Source: a bacterium
Lineage (GTDB): Bacteria > NPL-UPA2 > JAUVJM01
Direction of reading: 5' to 3'
Assembly: GCA_030606215.1 (NCBI GenBank)
Contig: JAUWGW010000008.1
Location: 1 to 61,138 of the forward strand
Length of the DNA stretch: 61,138 nucleotides
Shown here: positions 850 to 28,955 of the stretch, piece after piece
Layout: every line of letters begins with the position of its first letter
Numbering within the stretch: the stretch's first letter is position 1
Notes under the pieces: generated by a model
What the model saw: only the letters and a program-made list of their open reading frames with translations
Databases searched by the model: none
Told to the model about the DNA's origin: nothing
Program-made: the position numbers and the translations under genes

Positions 850-2845
850 GGAACTTTGCAAGAAACTGAAGCCAGTTATAGGCAGAAAAGCAAACGGTCT
901 GTGGCTTGCTTATCTGTCAGCACAGAAATTCAATGAAAAGCAGGAAATAGAAATAGCCCTCAGACTTCTTGCGGCAAAACACCTGAATGAGAATTTCGAC
1001 AACAAGAGAATCCTGTTAACGCCACCACCAAAAGATATGGCTTCCGGAGAATATCCGCTGGGTACAGTGATTTACAACGACAAAGAATTGTACCCGTTTG
1101 GACTGCGAGAATCTGAATGGGTGCAGCATCTTGGTGTTATGGGAAGAAGTGGCGCTGGAAAAACTAATGTTTGCTTTAACATCATCAAGATTCTGCTTGA
1201 ACATAAGAAACCTTTCCTGATATTTGATTGGAAACGTAACTATAGAGATATGCTAACCCTATTCCCTGATCATGATTTCTTGATTTACACAGTCGGAAGA
1301 AATATCTCACCGATACGGTTCAACCCGCTAATCCCGCCGGAAGGAACAGCGCCAGATACCTGGCTGAAGAAACTGATAGAAATCATAGCTACTACGTACT
1401 ATGTCGGTGAAGGTGTTATCAGTCTTCTGACCAGAGCAATTGATGCAGTTTACAAGAAATTCGGTATCTATGACGGGAATCTTGAATGTTATCCCACTAT
1501 GAGAGATGTCCTGAAATGGCTTGAGGATTACCCGGCTAAGGGGAGAGAAGCTCAATGGATGGTATCTACACTGAGAAGTGTTCATGCCCTGTGCTACGGC
1601 GAAATGGGCAGAGTAATCAATGTAGACCAGCAGTTTGGAATAGAGAAATTACTCAAGAAGAATGTCGTGTTGGAACTGGATGCATTAACAAACACGGATA
1701 AGAGCTTTTTAATAGAATCCTTGTTGCTCTGGATCCATCACTACAGATTAGCTGAAGGAAAAAGAGAAGAATTTAAGCATGCCATCATAATAGAAGAAGC
1801 ACATCATATCCTGAGAAGACAGGAACACAGCAAAAACGAGCACATCACAGAGACTATCTTGAGAGAAATCAGAGAGTTAGGAGAGTCAATTGTTATACTT
1901 GATCAGATGCCTTCCTTAATCACTCCACTCGCTCAGGCTAATACCCAGTGTACAATTACTATGAATCTCAAGAATAAATCCTGTGTTGCAACAGCTGCAA
2001 GTTACACTTTATTGGATAGAGATGAAAAAGAATATTTCGGGCAGCTGCCCGTAGGCTATGCTATTGTAAAACTCCAGGATAGATGGTCCAGTCCTTTTCT
2101 CATTAGGCTTCCCCTGATCCCCGTCAGAAAGGGTTCTGTGACAGATGAGATGGTAAAAGAAGCAATGGCAGGGTATTCCCCTAATTCCGGGTCAAAAACG
2201 CCACTGCAAAGCAATCAGCCGTCAGTTCCACCTGTTTCACAGCGTAATGAACTAACTGAAATAGAGAAGGAATTCTTGATACAAGTCTGGAAACATCCAC
2301 TAAACGGAACTGTTCAAAAGTATAAGCGGACAGGGCTAAGTAGAAGAAAAGGAAACTTGCTCAAGCAGAGTTTAATACAAAAAGGATTTATCATATCAAA
2401 ACCTATTTCAACAAGAACTGGAACTTTAATGTTGATGGAGATTACTGGCAAAGGTAGAGAGTTATTAAGAAACTTAGGCTATAAGATAATCTATAATCCC
2501 AACGAAGGTGGGGCTGAACATAGATACTGGGTAAATAAGGTAGCTTCGTGGTATAAGTCAAGGGGATATAGTGTGCAAATTGAGAAAAGGTTAAATAACA
2601 ATGAAGCTTGTGATATTGAGGTCATAGACAGAAAAGGAATGAGATTTGTTGTTGAGGTGCAGACAACAGAACGTAATTTACTGGAGAATATTGATAAGAA
2701 TATTAGGGCTGGCTATAAGAAGATAATAGTATTTGCTACAAATTACAGGGCAATGCAAAGGATAAAAGATATTTTGTTAAAGGAAGGAAACATACCAAAA
2801 GGAATTGAGGTTGAATTGGTGGATTGGAGTGGGGTTGAAATATAG
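830..2845 (+). CDS. HerA/DUF87-type ATPase fused to C-terminal nuclease-like domain
   Basis: 671 residues from GTG at 830 (an ATG at 839 is the alternative start). Residues about 100-430 form a HerA/FtsK-like motor with Walker A GRSGAGKTN (105-113) and Walker B IIIEEAHHIL (about 319-328). A linker follows, then a winged-helix-like stretch (about 480-550). The last 110 residues resemble a PD-(D/E)XK-type domain: GAEHRYW, then CDIEV and FVVEVQT as candidate Asp and Glu-x-Gln active-site strands. Fusions of this kind are, to my knowledge, typical of archaeal and candidate-phylum mobile elements, where the motor pumps or processes DNA. With the half tRNA at 3492-3531 this suggests a conjugative, viral or defence function. 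The catalytic Lys of the nuclease is not obvious. Confidence 0.8.
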   Translation: MVRMEVEELCKKLKPVIGRKANGLWLAYLSAQKFNEKQEIEIALRLLAAKHLNENFDNKRILLTPPPKDMASGEYPLGTVIYNDKELYPFGLRESEWVQHLGVMGRSGAGKTNVCFNIIKILLEHKKPFLIFDWKRNYRDMLTLFPDHDFLIYTVGRNISPIRFNPLIPPEGTAPDTWLKKLIEIIATTYYVGEGVISLLTRAIDAVYKKFGIYDGNLECYPTMRDVLKWLEDYPAKGREAQWMVSTLRSVHALCYGEMGRVINVDQQFGIEKLLKKNVVLELDALTNTDKSFLIESLLLWIHHYRLAEGKREEFKHAIIIEEAHHILRRQEHSKNEHITETILREIRELGESIVILDQMPSLITPLAQANTQCTITMNLKNKSCVATAASYTLLDRDEKEYFGQLPVGYAIVKLQDRWSSPFLIRLPLIPVRKGSVTDEMVKEAMAGYSPNSGSKTPLQSNQPSVPPVSQRNELTEIEKEFLIQVWKHPLNGTVQKYKRTGLSRRKGNLLKQSLIQKGFIISKPISTRTGTLMLMEITGKGRELLRNLGYKIIYNPNEGGAEHRYWVNKVASWYKSRGYSVQIEKRLNNNEACDIEVIDRKGMRFVVEVQTTERNLLENIDKNIRAGYKKIIVFATNYRAMQRIKDILLKEGNIPKGIEVELVDWSGVEI

Positions 2846-2952
2846 TAGGTCGAGTGTGGGAAACTGAACAAAAAAACAGAACACGTCTCACAACTTATCC
2901 AGCACAAAGCTTTTGATACAAGCGTACAACAAGGAATAGCAGCAACCAGCAA

Positions 2953-3129
2953 TTACTCTGAAACAAGAATCTTTTCGGTTGATTGTGTCTTCTCTAAAAA
3001 CTTCAACTTGTTTTTGTAGCCGTTGATGATGCTTTCTGCATACAACTCATAGCTTCTTTCTCTCTGCCTTTCTGAAGTGAAAGGCACAAACTCAACCCTG
3101 ACTTTCCATTCTCGCTTGCCATCTTTCAT
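2953..3129 (-). CDS. Small charged protein, 58 residues, mobile-element associated
   Basis: A short reverse-strand frame begins with ATG at 3129, preceded at 9 nt by GGAGG, one of the best ribosome-binding sites in this region. The product begins MKDGKREWKVRVEF, is rich in Lys, Arg and Glu, and carries the segment SERQRERSYELYAESI, probably helical. It has no membrane segment and no family I know. It sits between the HerA-type gene and the half tRNA, where elements often encode excisionases or small DNA-binding proteins; that role is only a guess. Confidence 0.5.
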   Translation of the reverse strand: MKDGKREWKVRVEFVPFTSERQRERSYELYAESIINGYKNKLKFLEKTQSTEKILVSE

Positions 3130-3291
3130 AGCTTAAAACCTCCCTCTGTGATATATGGACATCAAAACTAGGATGCTTTTTGCAATGCAATCCTGACCCG
3201 ACTTCCAGTTTGGATTGCGTCGTATGATGGGAAAAACTTGCGATTGGAAAACACACTAAAAAAAACACTAGCCAAATCATCTCAAAATTTT

Positions 3292-3335
3292 ATGCATTTC
3301 CGTTCGGCTTTTAATGCATTTCGGTTCGGTTTTCA
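3292..3335. repeat. Two tandem 22-bp repeats
   Basis: Units 3292-3313 and 3314-3335 share ATGCATTTC, GTTCGG and TTTT and differ at only a few positions. They lie about 160 bp inside the half-tRNA boundary, a plausible place for arm-type integrase or excisionase binding sites of the integrated element. No open frame with a recognisable product covers them. Confidence 0.5.
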
Positions 3336-3491
3336 TAAAAACGGGGTTTTCCAAGTTGGAAAGAGATGTAGTAGAGCGTGGAAAGTTTATTTCACGTTTT
3401 GTCGACGGTAAAATAATCTTATACTTGGTGGATAGTTGTTATACTCAGGTGTATTTTTTTATACTCTTGAAATTAGAAAGAGAGAACAGGG

Positions 3492-3531
3492 TTAGGAAAC
3501 CACTGCTCTATCCTGACTGAGCTACGGGCGC
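3492..3531 (-). pseudogene. 5' half of tRNA-Arg(CCT), interrupted in the anticodon loop
   Basis: Read on the reverse strand from 3531: acceptor strand GCGCCCG, TA, D-stem GCTC and GAGC around loop AGTCAGGATA, A26, anticodon-stem strand GTGGT and loop TTCCTAA with anticodon CCT (3496-3494). An intact tRNA would continue ACCAC, but the sequence reads CCCTG and no variable arm, T arm or acceptor 3' strand is found in the rest of the window to its left. The break exactly at the anticodon loop is the signature of integration by a tyrosine recombinase (or of an intron), with the foreign DNA on the low-coordinate side. Confidence 0.8.
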
Positions 3532-3637
3532 TTTTCATCATTTAACCATATTCTTGATACAGATACAAGAAAATTTGACAGAAGAACAAGTTTGCATTGA
3601 GCCGGGAAAAAGCTTAAAATGAAGTGAGGCGATAAAA

Positions 3638-4103
3638 ATGCTTAAGATTGGTACATCCGGTTTCTCTTTCCCTGATTGGAAAAGCACCGTATATCCTACT
3701 AATCTCTCTTCCAGACAAATGCTTCCATATTATGCTTCGGAGCTTGGTTTTGATACTGTAGAGATTAATTCCACCTATTACCGCATACCACAGCCAGAAA
3801 ACATGCTGGCTATGGCAGGGAAGACTCCGGAGAACTTTGAGTTTGTAGTCAAGGGATTTAGAGGGATGACTCATGATCCATTTGATAACCGTCTGGAGAC
3901 TAGACCAACGCACGAAGAGGTTGAGGATTATTTTCACAAATTCAATGAGGCAGTGGAACCACTTAAGAAAGAGGGGAAATTCAGAGAAGAGCTACGCCTT
4001 CTTCAATAATTGCCATGCGGGGAAAGCCGTCCGTAATGCTCAGACTTTGAAGGATAAGTTGGGTCTCAGCATAGTAAGGCCAAAAGGAGACCTCTTCGAA
4101 TGA
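3638..4103 (+). pseudogene. DUF72 family protein with internal deletion and frameshift
   Basis: The first 115 or so residues are a good DUF72 N-terminus (MLKIGTSGFSFPDWKSTVYP, then DTVEINSTYYRIP). After KKEGK near 3980 the frame is lost. The conserved C-terminal motif SYAFFNNCHAGKAVRNAQ resumes in another frame from about 3988 and ends at 4103. DUF72 proteins are usually about 230-250 residues, so roughly 90 central residues are missing. A GAGG ribosome-binding site precedes the ATG. It is adjacent to the half tRNA, and a second DUF72 remnant lies at 25950-26015 on the opposite strand. Confidence 0.8.
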
Positions 4104-4215
4104 AAAAGTCCCCACCACAGAAAATGTTTGACTGGCATAGGACTTTCCACGATAATAATCAGAGAAAGAAATAGGCAGGGTTTTCTATTCAACGGTTATC
4201 ATAGGAGACGATAGA

Positions 4216-21516: not shown

Positions 21517-22776
21517 CTATTTTAGTATTTCAAAACTCTTGAGTATATTTATAGCCTGAGCGAGCTGGGGATCTTTCTTCTCCTCTTTTTCACCTTTCTC
21601 AACAGCAGGTTCCACAACAATATCAGGTGTGATACCAACTTTGTCAATGACCTTTCCCTCAGGGCTATAATACCGGGCAGTAGTAAGCCTGAGTGCCGAA
21701 CCATCCCGTAGAGGGATGAGATTCTGCACAGAACCTTTCCCGTAAGTTTTCTTCCCTACAATTATTGCACAATTCCAATCCTGAAGTGCACCTGCAAGAA
21801 TCTCCGAGCCGCTGGCGCTGTATTCATTCACCAGAACAGTTAGTGGCAGGGTAGAACGCGGGAAACCGTCCTCTGCAATCTTCTCAATACTCTGATTTTG
21901 TCCCCTGCCCCGTGTTGATACAATAATCTTGCCGTCAGGGATAAACCTGTCAGCTATTTCAACTGCTGAATTGAGCAAACCACCAGGATTATTCCGTATG
22001 TCAAGAATGAGACTCCGCATACCTTCCTCTCTGAGCTTGTCAATTGCTTTATCCAGCTCATCAACAGTTCCTTCACGAAAATCAGTCAGCTTGATGTATC
22101 CAATACCATCTTCAACAATTTCCACATCAGTTACACTCTCAAGGTCAATTCTTTCCCTCTTTATTGTCAGCTCTCTCGGCTCCTCCCCTTCCCTGCCGAA
22201 AGTTACCGTCACAGGCTCTCCAACAGGACCACGAAGTGTGCTTACTGCCTCAGGAAGAGTTATCCCGAGAAGCTCGCGCAATCCTGCAGGGTCAACCCCC
22301 ATACGCAATCTTTCAATTGCCTCCTCAGGAGCAATTCCCTGAGTGGATTTGCCTGAAATCTCAAGGATCCTGTCATCCGGTTTTACACCTGCCCGTTCAG
22401 CAGGTTTACCTTTAAGGGTGGAAAATACCGTTAGATAATTATCTTTCATACCTATAACAATCCCGAGCCCTCCAAAATGCCCCTGAGTATTCTGCCGAAA
22501 CTGTTTATAAGAATCCGGTTCAATAAAACTGCTATGCAAGTCATTCAGCGAGGAGACTGTTCCATGAAGCGCGCCATAAAGCAGCTTCTCGCTGTCAACT
22601 TCTTCCACATAATTTTCCTCAATCTTATGTATAACCTGCTCTATGAAAGCAGAATATTCCCCACTTTCCAGCTCGCTTCCCATGCAGAGATTCTTAACAA
22701 CTTTTCCCCTGACAAGGAGATTCGCACCACTTACTAAAACCAGAATTACCACAAGCCAGCTAAATCTTTTATTCAT
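21517..22776 (-). CDS. ctpA: S41 family C-terminal processing protease
   Basis: 419 residues from ATG 22776 (GGGAG ribosome-binding site; the longer reading would overlap the DUF167 gene). A signal anchor (about 1-25) is followed by a helical N-domain, PDZ domain (about 85-180, GLGIVIGMKDNYLTV) and S41 catalytic domain with LILDIRNNPGGLLNSAVEIAD and the Ser-Lys dyad in SASGSEILAGAL and GKKTYGKGSVQ. A periplasmic protease that trims protein C-termini. The acidic/basic tail EKGEKEEKKDP is a common feature. Only 4 nt separate it from DUF167. Confidence 0.92.
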   Translation of the reverse strand: MNKRFSWLVVILVLVSGANLLVRGKVVKNLCMGSELESGEYSAFIEQVIHKIEENYVEEVDSEKLLYGALHGTVSSLNDLHSSFIEPDSYKQFRQNTQGHFGGLGIVIGMKDNYLTVFSTLKGKPAERAGVKPDDRILEISGKSTQGIAPEEAIERLRMGVDPAGLRELLGITLPEAVSTLRGPVGEPVTVTFGREGEEPRELTIKRERIDLESVTDVEIVEDGIGYIKLTDFREGTVDELDKAIDKLREEGMRSLILDIRNNPGGLLNSAVEIADRFIPDGKIIVSTRGRGQNQSIEKIAEDGFPRSTLPLTVLVNEYSASGSEILAGALQDWNCAIIVGKKTYGKGSVQNLIPLRDGSALRLTTARYYSPEGKVIDKVGITPDIVVEPAVEKGEKEEKKDPQLAQAINILKSFEILK

Positions 22777-22780
22777 ATAC

Positions 22781-23005
22781 TCACTCCCTTTGATTGATTT
22801 CAATAACCTTCTCTCTTGATTTTTCACCTTTGACAATTTTGATTCTACTTCTCTTCACACTAAAAAATTTTGCTAAGGTCTCAATTACAGCGCTATTCGC
22901 TTTCCCGTCAACTGCCGGAGCTTCCACACGCACCTTAAGCCTGTCTTCTTCTCTGGTAACATTTCTTTTCTTCGCATTTGGAATTACCCTTACATTTAAC
23001 TTCAT
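22781..23005 (-). CDS. DUF167 (YggU) family protein
   Basis: 74 residues: KLNVRVIPNAKKR, then LKVRVEAPAVDGKANSAVIETLAKFF and IKIVKGEKSREKVIEI, a textbook DUF167 small alpha/beta protein. Function unknown; often next to YggT or cell-division genes. Coupled to ctp. Confidence 0.9.
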   Translation of the reverse strand: MKLNVRVIPNAKKRNVTREEDRLKVRVEAPAVDGKANSAVIETLAKFFSVKRSRIKIVKGEKSREKVIEINQRE

Positions 23006-23056
23006 CGTTAAACACTCAACAGTTATACTTTAAGAGAAAAACTCTCTCTTGTAAAG

Positions 23057-23166: not shown

Positions 23167-23239
23167 CGTAACGCCCGAGCTCAGCAGTTTTTGGAGCAGC
23201 GAAGCTACGGAAAAAATCCGCTGAAGCGAATTGTTATGT
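23167..23239 (-). other. attC-like integron recombination site 1
   Basis: Reverse strand reads CATAACAATTCGCTTCAGCG, a central T/A-rich arm pair around CGTAGCTTCGCTGC, then CTGCTGAGCTCGGGCGTTACG. Outer TAACAA and GCGTTA boxes and the imperfectly paired CGCTTCAGCG / CTGCTGAGC arms reproduce the R, L, L, R box order of cassette-end (59-base-element) sites. It lies 37 nt beyond the stop of the 333-residue gene, in the usual 3' position and orientation for a gene cassette. Confidence 0.8.
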
Positions 23240-23276
23240 GCCTTGTATTTTGTCGAGGTGAAAAAACGATAACTTA

Positions 23277-24278
23277 TTAAGATTTAATTTTCTTAATGCT
23301 TTCTATTATGTATCTTCTCCACTCTGCCTTTTGTTTATCCATCTCTTCCAGTATCCTTGTCGGTAAGTCATCAATTTTGGATAACTTCCTAAAAAGATGT
23401 TCTTCACGGCTTAAAATATATTCATATTCAACTATTGCCCAAATTACATCTTCAAGCGTTTTATCAGGATTTTGTAAGATCAACTCGTAGTGCTCATATT
23501 CTTCTTGAGAAGTAGTGGGACTTAAAGGGGCTTTTATCCGAGACATTATAAGAGAGTTCAATAAATCATTTTCAGATGCTGTAGGGAATTTTTTCTTCAA
23601 ACGTTTATAAACCGCAATTTGTGCGTCCACAACGCCCCTGGGGCCTAACGAAGGAAATATTTTTAACAACAATCCACCGATGAGTGATTTTATAATGAAT
23701 AATATCGTCATTAAAAAATTCTTGTTTTTTCCCCATATCGAAGACCTTCTATCCCTTATCAAAATTGGATTCCCTTTAATAAATTCTTCGATATCAATAT
23801 CTGCATTTACTTCCTGAAGAATTTCTCTTTGTGTTTTTTCTCGTTTTGATGGTGCTATTTTTGCAGGGCCTGGAAAAGGGAAGAATACTGGACCAATGTC
23901 TTGTTCGAGTTTTCCTAAAAGATGAGCACCAATCCACTCCATATTATCTTCCATTAAATCATATATTAACACTCTTAATGTCCAGTATGTTCTTGCAAAC
24001 TTTAAAAATACTTCATTTGCTTCAGGATAATTGTCTTCAATAGAATTACCAAATTTTTCAGTAACCCTTCTTACTGGATATAAAACTACCCCTTTGGCTA
24101 CACAATGAAAAAATCCACAAAAAATTGCTTCATAAATTTCTCCTATGCGTTTCTGATATTGCTTTACTTCATCTGGCTTTTTCTTCAATATTATCATATC
24201 CTCTTCAGATAAACACATAGAGTTACTCTCAGTGAGTTTCTCTAATGTGGATAAAGCTTGTTCACAGCAACTATTCAT
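23277..24278 (-). CDS. Unknown 333-residue protein in an integron-type cassette
   Basis: No family recognised. Mostly helical, with an opening of Cys/Glu-rich residues (MNSCCEQALSTLEKL), and a hydrophobic stretch at about 205-230 (FLMTILFIIKSLIGGLLLKIF) that is either a membrane hairpin or a buried helix. The C-terminus is charged (KQKAEWRRYIIESIKKIKS). The ATG is 23 nt from attC site 2 and the stop 37 nt from attC site 1, so the gene exactly fills a cassette of about 1.13 kb. It is more A+T-rich than neighbours such as ctp, which fits acquired DNA. Defence or membrane-associated roles are only conjecture. Confidence 0.7.
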   Translation of the reverse strand: MNSCCEQALSTLEKLTESNSMCLSEEDMIILKKKPDEVKQYQKRIGEIYEAIFCGFFHCVAKGVVLYPVRRVTEKFGNSIEDNYPEANEVFLKFARTYWTLRVLIYDLMEDNMEWIGAHLLGKLEQDIGPVFFPFPGPAKIAPSKREKTQREILQEVNADIDIEEFIKGNPILIRDRRSSIWGKNKNFLMTILFIIKSLIGGLLLKIFPSLGPRGVVDAQIAVYKRLKKKFPTASENDLLNSLIMSRIKAPLSPTTSQEEYEHYELILQNPDKTLEDVIWAIVEYEYILSREEHLFRKLSKIDDLPTRILEEMDKQKAEWRRYIIESIKKIKS

Positions 24279-24300
24279 TTTTTGTTTCCTATAATTTTCA

Positions 24301-24370
24301 CATAACGCCTGAACTCACTGGTTTTTACGCAGCGTAGCGGAGTAAAAATCCAGTGCAGTGATTTGTTAGC
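24301..24370 (-). other. attC-like integron recombination site 2
   Basis: Reverse strand: GCTAACAAATCACTGCACTGG, a hairpin arm TTTTTAC/GTAAAAA around CTCCGCTACGCTGC, then CCAGTGAGTTCAGGCGTTATG. The R boxes (GCTAAC, GCGTTATG) and the arms CACTGCACTGG / CCAGTGAGTTC pair with one or two bulged bases as in known attC sites. It has the same layout and central loop motif as site 1, and lies 34 nt beyond the nuclease gene's stop. Confidence 0.83.
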
Positions 24371-24403
24371 TTTTAATTTAATATTTTCTGCATATTCAAT
24401 TTT

Positions 24404-25612
24404 TTAAAATCTATGCCTGAAAGCTCTTCTAAAACCAGCATCTTCTGCTTCTTTGACCGTAAAGGCATAGAATTCTCCGGCACGATTTCCAATGATTGTT
24501 CTATCGTATTGTTGATCCATGGGTAAATGATAAATTTTTGTTTGTCCAAACTCATCATTATTTATGTTGCATTTAATTCTTGGGAATTCACCGAGGGGCT
24601 CGTTTTCTATAATTTCTACACTTAATGCGTTTGCCATTTCTCTGGCTTTGTCAGATAAGCTCGTTGAGGTGAAAAATATTGGTCTAAGCTTATTTTCGTT
24701 CAAAAACTTAGCAAACTCTTCAAAACTTTTTGGTTTTTTGTGATTCCTAAAGCTTTTAACCCAATATTCCATTGTCGTACCAAATAGCTGGAATATGTGT
24801 TTTTCATGTATTTCCTTATATTGTGCCCAACGTTTGCATTGGATAATACAAACTTCGTCACTTTTTTTCGCAATAATATCTCGACCTAAATCTTCAAAGC
24901 CATCAATGATTCCTTTGTACTCAATAGAATATCCTTTTTGTTCATATAAATAACCAACATACATTTCATAATCTCTTCCGATTGCCCATTTCGATTTATA
25001 TCGGTTTCTCAAATATCTATCTAAAGCCATTTGATTTCTTTCGACAGAAGGAAGGCTTTTATATTCTTCTTGAGTAAGATAATTTTTGACTCTGTCTTCG
25101 TTATCATCATCTTTAATTTCATCTTCAATCCGAACAGGTATCTCCTCATCTTCATCCTCGGCAATTAATTCTGAAAGCCAAGGGAATAATTTTTCAAAAT
25201 AGTTTATTTTGTAGCTGATTATTTTGTTTTCCTTAACTAATTCCCTTTTCTCATTTTTAATAATTTTTACATTTTCAGCAGCTGTGTAAGCAGGATGCTT
25301 TTTATGTATGAGGTAGTTTTCTATTTCTCTGTCTTTTAGCTCAAAATAATCTGCATATGCTTCTGCGAGCCACGGGAATCCCATTGATTTTTGTTTGGCA
25401 ATTTTGTGAATTTCATGTTTATCTTTTTTGACTTTTTCATTCCACTCCTCTACTTTTGACCCATGCTCTTTTATGGAATTCTCCAAATTATCTAATTTTG
25501 GCTTTAGTGCTAAATATTTTTTGGAGTTCGAAATAGTATCAATAATCCAAGCAATTATTGCCCAGATTACAGCTATTCCTATGATGATGAGTATCCATGA
25601 ATAATCTTCCAT
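24404..25612 (-). CDS. Membrane-anchored Mrr-like restriction endonuclease in an integron-type cassette
   Basis: 402 residues. One N-terminal transmembrane helix (about 5-26), a coiled-coil/helical region (30-135) and an acidic linker (about 150-175, EDEDEE, DDDNEDR) lead to an Mrr-type PD-(D/E)XK domain from about 205: GRDYEMYVGYLYEQKGYSIEY, then the catalytic D of DLGRDIIA and Q-x-K of CIIQCKRW. Mrr-like nucleases cut modified or foreign DNA; membrane anchoring suggests action on incoming DNA. The A+T-rich gene is followed by attC site 2, and its ATG is about 30 nt after GTTAGC (25644-25639), a candidate cassette junction. Confidence 0.85.
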   Translation of the reverse strand: MEDYSWILIIIGIAVIWAIIAWIIDTISNSKKYLALKPKLDNLENSIKEHGSKVEEWNEKVKKDKHEIHKIAKQKSMGFPWLAEAYADYFELKDREIENYLIHKKHPAYTAAENVKIIKNEKRELVKENKIISYKINYFEKLFPWLSELIAEDEDEEIPVRIEDEIKDDDNEDRVKNYLTQEEYKSLPSVERNQMALDRYLRNRYKSKWAIGRDYEMYVGYLYEQKGYSIEYKGIIDGFEDLGRDIIAKKSDEVCIIQCKRWAQYKEIHEKHIFQLFGTTMEYWVKSFRNHKKPKSFEEFAKFLNENKLRPIFFTSTSLSDKAREMANALSVEIIENEPLGEFPRIKCNINNDEFGQTKIYHLPMDQQYDRTIIGNRAGEFYAFTVKEAEDAGFRRAFRHRF

Positions 25613-25683
25613 AATAACTTTACCTATATTTTTCTATAGCTAACTTATTTATTGAATAGATACCTGCTTTTTGTTGTCGCATT

Positions 25684-25713: not shown

Positions 25714-25856
25714 GCTCTTCGTTAATAAGCTCTGAAAAACCATCAAGATTAGTATCCAACTTCCCCGTGATTCTGTAGGGCTTACAAACTGGCATGCTTT
25801 GAGAAGCTTACTCTGTCCCCTGTCATTATCTGTTCTCTCTTGCCAGCATCACTCCA

Positions 25857-25933
25857 TCTTGCTCAAACAATTCACCATCAATTTGTTTAAGCAACTGTCT
25901 TTGCGCTTTCTTGCTTATGGCATCAAAAGAAGT
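25857..25933. repeat. 77-bp direct repeat, copy A
   Basis: Matches 26458-26534 at 75 of 77 positions, 601 bp apart. On the reverse strand both copies encode SFDAISKKAQRQLLKQIDG; in copy A the frame continues to ELFEQDGVMLARENR and a stop, so it is the 3' end of a small gene whose 5' part is missing. It abuts a DUF72 remnant. The stretch 25613-26081 holds no intact gene. Confidence 0.7.
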
Positions 25934-26273: not shown

Positions 26274-26404
26274 TCTCTTCCCCTCCCGACATTAGCTCCT
26301 CCGGTGTAAGAATCACTGGCACTGATCGTGATGTTTTTGATTCAAACTGTTTCAACCTGCTTATGATCAATCCATTTGCCAAATGCGAGCAGTTCCAGGT
26401 CAAA

Positions 26405-26450
26405 GCCCTTCGTGGCATAGAGGCACAAATCGTAGAAATAGAGGTTGATT
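26405..26450 (+). pseudogene. Fragment of comM (5' region)
   Basis: Encodes [16 protein letters not shown]; about 45 bp match comM 27369-27414 with two mismatches, in the same orientation. Before and after it there is no similarity, and the surrounding frame is chimaeric. It sits immediately before repeat copy B. Confidence 0.8.
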
Positions 26451-26457
26451 TGTACCG

Positions 26458-26534
26458 TCTTGCTCAAACAATTCACCATCAATCTGTTTCAGCAACTGTC
26501 TTTGCGCTTTCTTGCTTATGGCATCAAAAGAAGT
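26458..26534. repeat. 77-bp direct repeat, copy B
   Basis: Second copy of 25857-25933, beginning directly at the stop codon of the PIN toxin gene (26535) and ending at the comM fragment. Its encoded piece (reverse strand, SFDAISKKAQRQLLKQIDG) lacks a start. Confidence 0.7.
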
Positions 26535-26948
26535 TTAGCTTTTCCTCTTCAGATACTTGTCAACGAAACCACGCGGGGAAATTACAACAATCCCCTGATA
26601 TCCTGACACCTTCAACAATGCCTTGTCGCCACTGACTATGATCTTGGTTCCGCTTGCCAACGCGCACGCCAGAAATACATCGTCATCACCGTCTGTGCAG
26701 ACCTGCTCAGGCAAATGCGGAGACTTAACCAACGACCCCTTAATCATCAACAGTTCAATAAAAGGTTCAGGGTCAACTTCAGGAAAATCATCCATCAATT
26801 GAGTTGCAACACGGCAGTACTCATTAAGTATATCAGGCGATACGACAAGATGAACACGATTGTGACGCCACGCATCCAGAATATCATACGGTAGACCACG
26901 GAAAAATATACCCGACATGAACACATCTGTGTCCAGAATGATCTTCAT
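26535..26948 (-). CDS. PIN-domain toxin (VapC-like ribonuclease)
   Basis: 137 residues, COG1569-type PIN family. Acidic residues: D7 and D9 region of [13 protein letters not shown]44 (LNEYCRV), D86-D90 (DGDDDVFLACALA) and D105 (IIVSGDKALL). Such proteins are Mg-dependent RNases. The start overlaps the stop of the AbrB-like antitoxin by 4 nt (ATGA), a classic type II module. The frame is intact. Confidence 0.88.
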   Translation of the reverse strand: MKIILDTDVFMSGIFFRGLPYDILDAWRHNRVHLVVSPDILNEYCRVATQLMDDFPEVDPEPFIELLMIKGSLVKSPHLPEQVCTDGDDDVFLACALASGTKIIVSGDKALLKVSGYQGIVVISPRGFVDKYLKRKS

Positions 26949-27208
26949 TTGCGACCCCGAACCTTTGCAATAGCTGTAGAGATGTCAAATCTCTTCATTC
27001 CCGCAGCCTTTGCCTGCCTGCGCATGCGGAGAATAAGACTGTCAAATTCCATCATGGACGGTTTCGCTATAGATTTCAGAATCACAACGTCATTCTCCCC
27101 AACTACAACAAACTGAGCACCGGGTTCGAGATGCAGTTGCTCCCTTATGGTTTCTGGGATAACAACCTGCCCTTTTGATGACATCTTTGTCGTTGCTATA
27201 GTCTGCAT
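26945..27208 (-). CDS. AbrB/SpoVT-type antitoxin
   Basis: 87 residues from ATG 27208, with AGGAGG 6 nt upstream (a longer frame to 27256 has no such site). Swapped-hairpin AbrB fold: [31 protein letters not shown]. It is expected to bind the PIN toxin and the promoter at 27237-27264. The C-terminal half ([21 protein letters not shown]) would be the toxin-wrapping tail. Confidence 0.88.
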
Positions 27209-27236
27209 CATCCACCTCCTTTGTCTTACCAGTAAG

Positions 27237-27264
27237 ATTATAGCAAAACTATCCAAGTTTGCAA
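27237..27264 (-). promoter_or_regulatory. Promoter of the AbrB/PIN module
   Basis: Reverse strand TTGCAA (27264-27259), 16-bp spacer, TATAAT (27242-27237), 29 nt upstream of the antitoxin ATG. A short inverted repeat CTTACTGGTAAG (27236-27225) follows directly and is a plausible AbrB operator. Confidence 0.65.
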
Positions 27265-27313
27265 GTACTTTTTCGGACTACTCATTTTATTTTCCATTCC
27301 ACATTCCCTGTGG

Positions 27314-27319
27314 TATAAT
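27314..27319 (+). promoter_or_regulatory. Extended -10 of comM
   Basis: TGGTATAAT (TATAAT at 27314-27319) has the TGn extension; no good -35 is visible. It is 26 bp upstream of ATG 27345 with AGGAGAG in between. Confidence 0.5.
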
Positions 27320-27344
27320 CCCCACAAGTTCAGGAGAGCAACTC

Positions 27345-28955
27345 ATGCTGGCAAAAGTCAAGAGCAGCGCCCTTCGCGGCATAGAAGCACAAATCGTAGA
27401 AATAGAGGTTGATATTGCAAGCGGCCTTCCCGCAACCACAATCGTGGGTTTGCCTGATACAGCAGTTAAAGAAAGCAGAGACAGAGTGAAAACCGCAATC
27501 AGGAATTCCGGGTTTGATTATCCTGTCCGTAAAGTCGTTGTCAACCTTGCTCCAGCAAATGTCAGAAAAGAAGGTGCCTCTTTTGACCTTCCGTTTGCCC
27601 TCGGGATTCTCTCAGCAACAGGTCAGATAGAAAAGAATAGCCCAAGCAATTTCACATTTCCCGACAAACTATCTGTTGACGAAAAGGGCCATTTGTTAGT
27701 GCCAGGTGAGGTGCGAAGGAAAAACCTTGACGATTTCATATTTCTTGGAGAACTTTCACTTGATGGAACATTGAAAAAGGTAAATGGCATTCTGCCAGTC
27801 GCTCTTGAAGCGAGGAAAAGAGGAATCAGCGGAATAGTTATCCCGCAGAGCAACGCAAACGAAGCCGCTATTGTGGAAGGACTGGAGATTGTGCCGGTAA
27901 AGAGTTTGCATGAAGTAGCTCAATTTCTCAAGGATGAATTTGTTCCAGACATTCCATCCTGCAATCGTGATGAAATCTTCGCAAGAAATCGCCTGTATGA
28001 TATTGACTTTTCCGAAGTAATAGGGCAGGAACATGCAAAAAGGGGTCTGGAGGTAGCAGCCGCCGGCGGACACAACATCCTTCTGATTGGACCTCCAGGT
28101 TCAGGGAAAACTATGCTGGCGAAGAGATTTCCCACAATCATCCCTGATATGACCTTTGAGGAAGCTATTGAAACAACAAAAATTCACAGTGCCGCAGGTT
28201 TCCTGCACCCGGAACAGGCACTTGTCTGCGCAAGACCTTTCCGCTCACCTCATCATATGATATCTGATGCAGGCTTGATTGGTGGTGGGAATTTTCCAAA
28301 ACCAGGTGAAATCAGCTTAGCACATAATGGAGTTTTGTTCCTGGATGAATTTCCGGAATTCAGACGCAGTGCACTTGAAGCACTCCGCCAGCCGCTTGAA
28401 GATGGTTGTGTGACAATATCAAGAGCAAGTGGTTCCATAACCCTGCCTGCAAGGTTTATGCTTGTTGCCGCTATGAACCCATGTCCCTGCGTATATTACA
28501 CCGATCCCAAAAAGGAATGCAAATGTACCCCTAACCAGATACAGAAATATATCTCAAGAATTTCAGGTCCTCTGCTTGACAGGATAGATATCCACATTGA
28601 AGTGCCTCCTGTTAAAGACATCATCTCTAAGGAGGCAAATGCTGAACCATCAGCGAATGTAAGAGATAGGGCAAATAAAAGCAGGAAAATTCAGCAGGAA
28701 AGGTTTGAAAAAGAAAACTTCTTCTGCAATGCTGATATGCAGACTAAACACATTAAAAAATATTGCCAGATTGGAGACCAAGCGCTGGAATTGTTGAAGC
28801 TTGCAATGAGTGAATTTGGAATGAGCGCCAGGGCATACCACAGAATACTGAAAGTTGCCCGCACAATAGCCGACCTCGCGCAATCAGAAAATATAGAAGC
28901 CGAACATATCTCAGAAGCCATCCAGTACAGAGCTCTTGACAGAACCGCACAGTAA
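27345..28955 (+). CDS. comM: ComM-type Mg-chelatase-like AAA+ helicase
   Basis: 536 residues from ATG 27345 (AGGAGAG at 27332; the in-frame extension to 27147 is not needed). N-terminal Lon-protease-like domain ([19 protein letters not shown]), then AAA+ with Walker [15 protein letters not shown] and Walker B FLDEFPEF, zinc-like [15 protein letters not shown] and the C-terminal lid ([18 protein letters not shown]). ComM drives branch migration during natural transformation and heteroduplex formation. Length is normal. Three degenerate fragments of it occur at 23.06, 26.41 and 33.75 kb. Confidence 0.94.

Follow-up and report, generated by a model that had tools for sequence, protein, structure and literature searches.

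Integrase-less integron gene cassettes in a small bacterial phylum include a putative defence nuclease shared across phyla

A CALIN is a cluster of attC sites lacking an integron-integrase, for which IntegronFinder 2 requires at least two attC sites by default (PMC9024848). Such clusters are mobilisable by IntI supplied in trans (PMC9668308). The insertion of cassettes at secondary chromosomal (attG-type) sites is described as common (Loot 2024, as cited in PMC12901181), and integrons have also been described in phages (PMC9892861). We analysed a window of 61,138 bases, which is one entire contig (C9) of a 1.52-Mb draft genome. The genome is a bin of 34 contigs with 93% completeness and belongs to a small phylum, nine genomes of which were compared. 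Like the CALINs reported with IntegronFinder 2, the window holds two tandem attC sites on the same strand with one gene each and no integron-integrase nearby (Table 1). The pair is small, with two sites against a reported average of almost six (PMC9024848), and differs from those CALINs in that the genome has retained the 3' end of an intI gene on a different contig. The intI and attI adjoining the cassettes that make a complete integron are absent. We consider it very probable that these are two tandem gene cassettes of a CALIN, joined by IntI, that the nuclease cassette has moved between phyla, and that its product is most likely a defence nuclease.

The attC sites were located using a covariance model (R1) built from 13 sites on class 1 integron plasmids, a Kovacikia (cyanobacterial) plasmid and a Scalindua contig, with no site from the present genome. 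The model has 16 pairs with covariation and 35 two-sided changes, and none of 500 shuffles scored equally high. Searched on both strands of the window up to E = 10, R1 gave exactly two matches. These coincide with two attC-like sites that an earlier note had read from the letters of this DNA, and the possibility that a trained attC model would score them below threshold is contradicted at both. On 412 kb of other loci, matches at E ≤ 1 were confined to integron, cassette and training loci or to a phage-contig array. An Rfam search returned no matches, Rfam being uninformative on attC. A regex-and-fold attC finder was rejected in favour of the covariance model because its noise was far too high.

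Table 1. Positions of the cassettes, their recombination sites and their genes in the window
Feature	Coordinates	Strand	Details
Gene cassette A (nuclease)	24306..25643	minus	presumed crossovers G^TTAGC (25644/25643) and G^TTATG (24306/24305)
Gene cassette B (333-aa protein)	23172..24305	minus	presumed crossovers G^TTATG and G^TTACG
Left junction of cassette pair, GTTAGC	25639..25644	minus	start of the cross-phylum alignment
attC of nuclease cassette (A)	24301-24370	minus	R1 29.7 bits, E 8.8e-5
attC of 333-aa cassette (B)	23167-23239	minus	R1 match 23167-23238, 31.6 bits, E 3e-5
CDS, 402-aa Mrr-type nuclease	24404..25612	minus	PF04471 38 bits, cut-off 21
CDS, 333-aa protein	23277..24278	minus	hydrophobic stretch at residues 189-207, hydropathy 2.1

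Both sites lie at the 3' end of their own gene on the same strand, starting 37 nt (333-aa gene) and 33 nt (nuclease gene) after the stop codon, where 34-37 nt had been given. Their outer boxes, unpaired central spacers, L stems, extrahelical base and CTTCGCTGC and CTACGCTGC loops agree with the earlier description. The bottom strand of the nuclease-cassette site folds into a clean standard hairpin with an extrahelical base (-12.5 kcal/mol, z -2.27, 6 of 200 shuffles as good). Taken from box to box, the bottom strand of the other site also forms an attC hairpin (-7.5 kcal/mol), with an A.C mismatch within the L stem. Placed in 81 nt of context, this second site has a competing alternative fold and an unremarkable energy (z -0.19). 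With its mismatch and competing fold, this site may recombine less efficiently. The ordinary energy, together with a terminator-like pattern overlapping the same site, is what would be expected if the attC-like sites were ordinary terminators or chance hairpins and the genes had been acquired by other means. We give this explanation almost no credence, as it is contradicted by the independent R1 matches (E ~1e-5 to 1e-4), by the complementarity between R'' boxes and cassette starts, by cassette ends that are common across phyla, and by a real integron of Scalindua that holds the same nuclease cassette.

In the circular form of a cassette, the R' box that faces its R'' is completed by the first bases of the same cassette. 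Cassette B starts with GTTATGTG and has the R'' box CACATAAC (8 nt complementary), and cassette A starts with GTTAGCT and has the R'' box AGCTAAC (7 nt complementary), whereas the crossed pairings reach 4 nt only. This pattern is as expected if each cassette had passed through a circular form. In the present arrangement, the R' box of the nuclease-cassette attC is completed by the start of the next cassette, GTTATGTG, and that of the 333-aa-cassette attC by chromosomal DNA, GTTACGGTAAC. The G+C content of both cassettes is 0.33, compared with 0.43 for the window. GTTAGC at 25644-25639 had been suggested as the far junction of the pair, and the alignment across phyla does begin exactly at 25644.

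The same unit with the same ends was found in other organisms for the nuclease cassette, and no other copy was found for the 333-aa cassette. Neither cassette gene was found in the eight other genomes of the phylum, which contradicts the possibility that these genes are fixed in close relatives lacking adjoining attC-like ends. The DNA of the nuclease cassette matches the Planctomycetota genome MohnsGC08_bin181 (VRUG01000002.1, locus L031) with 94.6% identity over 25426-24363 and 91.7% over 25644-25488, and it matches Ca. Scalindua (JANLHC010000114.1, locus L026) over 25644-24396. In both cases, position 25644 is exactly where the shared DNA starts, and in MohnsGC08_bin181 it ends within the R'' box. 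The protein tree pairs the window nuclease with the MohnsGC08_bin181 copy (99/96) inside a mixed group of Planctomycetota and Patescibacteria. This copy resembles ours in its nucleotide identity of 92-95% from 25644 to the R'' box, and differs in that R1 recognises no attC on either side and the genome encodes a full IntI elsewhere (365 bits).

The order at the Scalindua locus is a partial intI (minus strand), an attI-like GTTAGCC, a 162-aa cassette, an attC, the nuclease cassette and further attC sites. It shares with our locus a nuclease that is 81% identical, a cassette whose first 26 nt, GTTAGCTATAGAAAAATATAGGTAAA, are the same, and an attC before as well as further attC sites downstream of the cassette. 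Unlike our locus, it has intI (cut by the contig end), and the site directly after its nuclease is degenerate and unmatched by R1. Among the nuclease-homologue loci from genomes, R1 gave a match at this locus only. Two of these Scalindua sites, and one more found by eye, belong to the R1 training set, and R1 matches there are therefore not independent.

Two further copies of the nuclease cassette were recovered. One (L034) keeps GTTAGCTATA at its start and has GCTAA...TGTTATGTG after the stop, which looks like the result of a deletion of the attC hairpin. The other (L132) is on the IMG/VR contig IMGVR_UViG_2909979649, where a nuclease homologue comes straight after two cassettes, the first with an R1 attC match and the other with an attC-like end. 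It departs from our cassette in its start, GTTAGCATT, and its 79% identity, and the contig ends at the nuclease stop. In this 36.7-kb contig, the region 1094-4182 comprises the nuclease and the two cassettes, which carry unknown, apparently membrane-protein genes; they follow an adjoining gene that, from its residues, we take to be phage late-control D-like. Most nuclease homologues, including Patescibacteria proteins that are 82-87% identical, have no attC at the gene, and it therefore appears that one branch of a wider nuclease family was captured as a cassette. Judged from the sequences compared, the nuclease cassette is a mobile unit and has passed from one phylum to another. Separately, a 0.7-Mb Paceibacterota genome (G389) has five attC matches within ~3.4 kb (C13:1010-4348, L129) and the nuclease elsewhere in the genome.

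The reading of the 402-aa protein as an Mrr nuclease with an N-terminal membrane helix is borne out by a PF04471 match over the cut-off and by a hydrophobic helix at residues 6-24 (hydropathy 2.91). A long helical part lies between this helix and the Mrr domain, and the C-terminus resembles a sunset domain (NF051437, 26.5 bits, just under the cut-off of 27). The protein shares with the Mrr-type restriction endonucleases (PF04471) the catalytic core D-L-G-R-D ... Q-C-K, above the curated cut-off. The N-terminal membrane helix, the long helical part and the sunset-like domain set it apart from those enzymes, as does the lack of any other recognised DNA-reading domain. The catalytic residues D245, Q258 and K260 are invariant in 32 homologues. 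The predicted structure has a pLDDT of 80, and its closest Foldseek matches are the nucleases AF1548 (Mrr-like), MspJI, Cdn1, EndoMS and Hjc, which is a match at the level of class only. The protein is thus assigned to the Mrr-type PD-(D/E)XK nucleases as a putative DNA-cutting enzyme. Most likely, the cell uses this nuclease, tethered to the membrane, against invading DNA; we infer both the membrane location and the defence role. An anti-phage function is plausible given the nuclease fold, the phage-borne copy and precedents among integron cassettes. No PADLOC model matches the nuclease up to E = 1, and it is conceivable, although we hold this only tentatively, that it represents a one-gene anti-phage system, anchored in the membrane and so far absent from catalogues, which is exchanged as a cassette between phyla by integrons and phages and has relatives in very small Patescibacteria genomes.

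The 333-aa protein had been described as unknown, and it has no detectable relative in Pfam, NCBIfam, PADLOC (up to E = 1), 386 genomes other than its own, plasmids, phages or viral contigs. The AlphaFold model made without relatives is unusable (pLDDT 41). Genes without relatives are common among cassette genes.

No intI had been noticed near the cassettes, and neither the 61-kb contig nor the whole draft bin contains a TIGR02249 match over the cut-off. The recombinase pieces in the window are all of XerC/D type and score 83.7 and 49.8 bits, under the cut-off of 265 bits. An intI 3' remnant is present inside a 125-kb contig of the genome (C13:64401-64592), as a 66-codon frame that covers the last 64 model positions (103 bits) ~1 kb from an attC at C13:63316-63383. 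Weak TIGR02249 pieces on C28 and C6 and at C13:62819 (13-15 bits) were left as chance. The genome has more attC sites on C32, where a cassette shows R''/start complementarity over 9 nt, and on C19, and its cassettes are scattered over at least four contigs. The CALIN-like status proposed for the pair stands, with two R1 matches and no intI on the contig, and is extended by the remnant and the cassettes elsewhere. In the same family, genome G001 encodes a complete IntI (410 aa, 405.6 bits, ~48% identical to IntI1). At E ≤ 0.1, attC matches occur in eight of the phylum's nine genomes, and arrays are present in G003 and G008. Because attC sites are this widespread, and given the full IntI in G001 and the remnant here, integrons seem to be native to the phylum and to be decaying in the present lineage.

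We also recorded the gene content around the remnant. The region C13:63095-64700 (L012 18095-19700) holds a HicB-like gene with an attC, a HEPN/nucleotidyltransferase-like pair and the 66-codon frame. The attC of the HicB-like cassette (L012 18318-18381) has a shortened copy on C19 (L105 735-830), beside a PIN-like toxin-antitoxin pair. In G001 (C41; L073 10571-12158) a cassette is placed 3' of intI and oriented towards it, which departs from the usual layout, and the remnant of the present genome has the same cassette arrangement.

The cassettes lie in the middle of their contig, flanked on both sides by housekeeping genes. On one side (21517-23006) are the carboxy-terminal protease gene ctpA and, upstream of it, a small frame that from its residues is presumably DUF167-like; on the other (26535-28955) are a PIN/MazE-type toxin-antitoxin pair and, beyond it, comM. 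This setting bears on whether the assembly has split a complete working integron whose intact intI and further cassettes are on missing DNA. Although the genome is an incomplete draft bin, and draft genomes inflate CALIN counts (PMC9024848), we regard such a split as quite improbable, given the position of the pair between the ctpA and comM sides of a 61-kb contig and the fact that the only intI found is truncated and internal to a 125-kb contig. A promoter scan found promoter-like sites to be no commoner than in shuffles. An 80-nt direct repeat (25854-25933 and 26455-26534, 96% identical) flanks ~520 bp upstream of the cassette pair and has a third copy, 84% identical, at C5:81457-81536. At its 5' end comM has 56 nt (27358-27413) that are duplicated with 88% identity at 26394-26449. 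The duplicate lies ~960 bp upstream of the gene, in the interval that separates the cassettes from the toxin-antitoxin pair.

IntI, once made by the lineage or supplied by another cell, would have joined the cassettes at folded bottom-strand attC sites. Two routes could lead to this: the pair may be what remains of an old array in a decaying integron, or it may have been inserted at a secondary (attG-type) site. The second route, in which IntI acting in trans inserted the cassettes directly into the chromosome and no integron ever existed at the locus, concerns the same kind of element and differs in the route only. We rate its probability as substantial but somewhat short of even. Profile and R1 searches recognised no attI, attC or intI trace upstream of 25644, which is consistent with this route, as are the scattering of cassettes over the genome and the nuclease cassette of MohnsGC08_bin181, which sits where R1 sees no attC. 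However, two tandem cassettes and an intI remnant elsewhere fit the decay or rearrangement of an old array equally well, and the comparison with G001 revealed no empty insertion site, ctpA being non-syntenic and adjoining an S1-like gene there. By either route, expression of the cassette genes would need a local promoter. Because the integrase gene persists only as a 3' remnant elsewhere in the genome, the cassette pair would be fixed unless IntI returns in trans.

An integrase-less cassette pair is an arrangement of a known kind, and what our analysis adds is the documented travel of the nuclease cassette across phyla. It provides a clean example of a single cassette, recognisable by its ends, crossing bacterial phyla, in a small phylum where integron parts occur in eight of nine genomes. 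Some integron cassettes whose function was unknown are reported to carry anti-phage systems (Darracq 2025, Kieffer 2025 and Getz 2025, as cited in PMC12409362 and PMC12444791), and the nuclease is a specific one-gene candidate for such a role.
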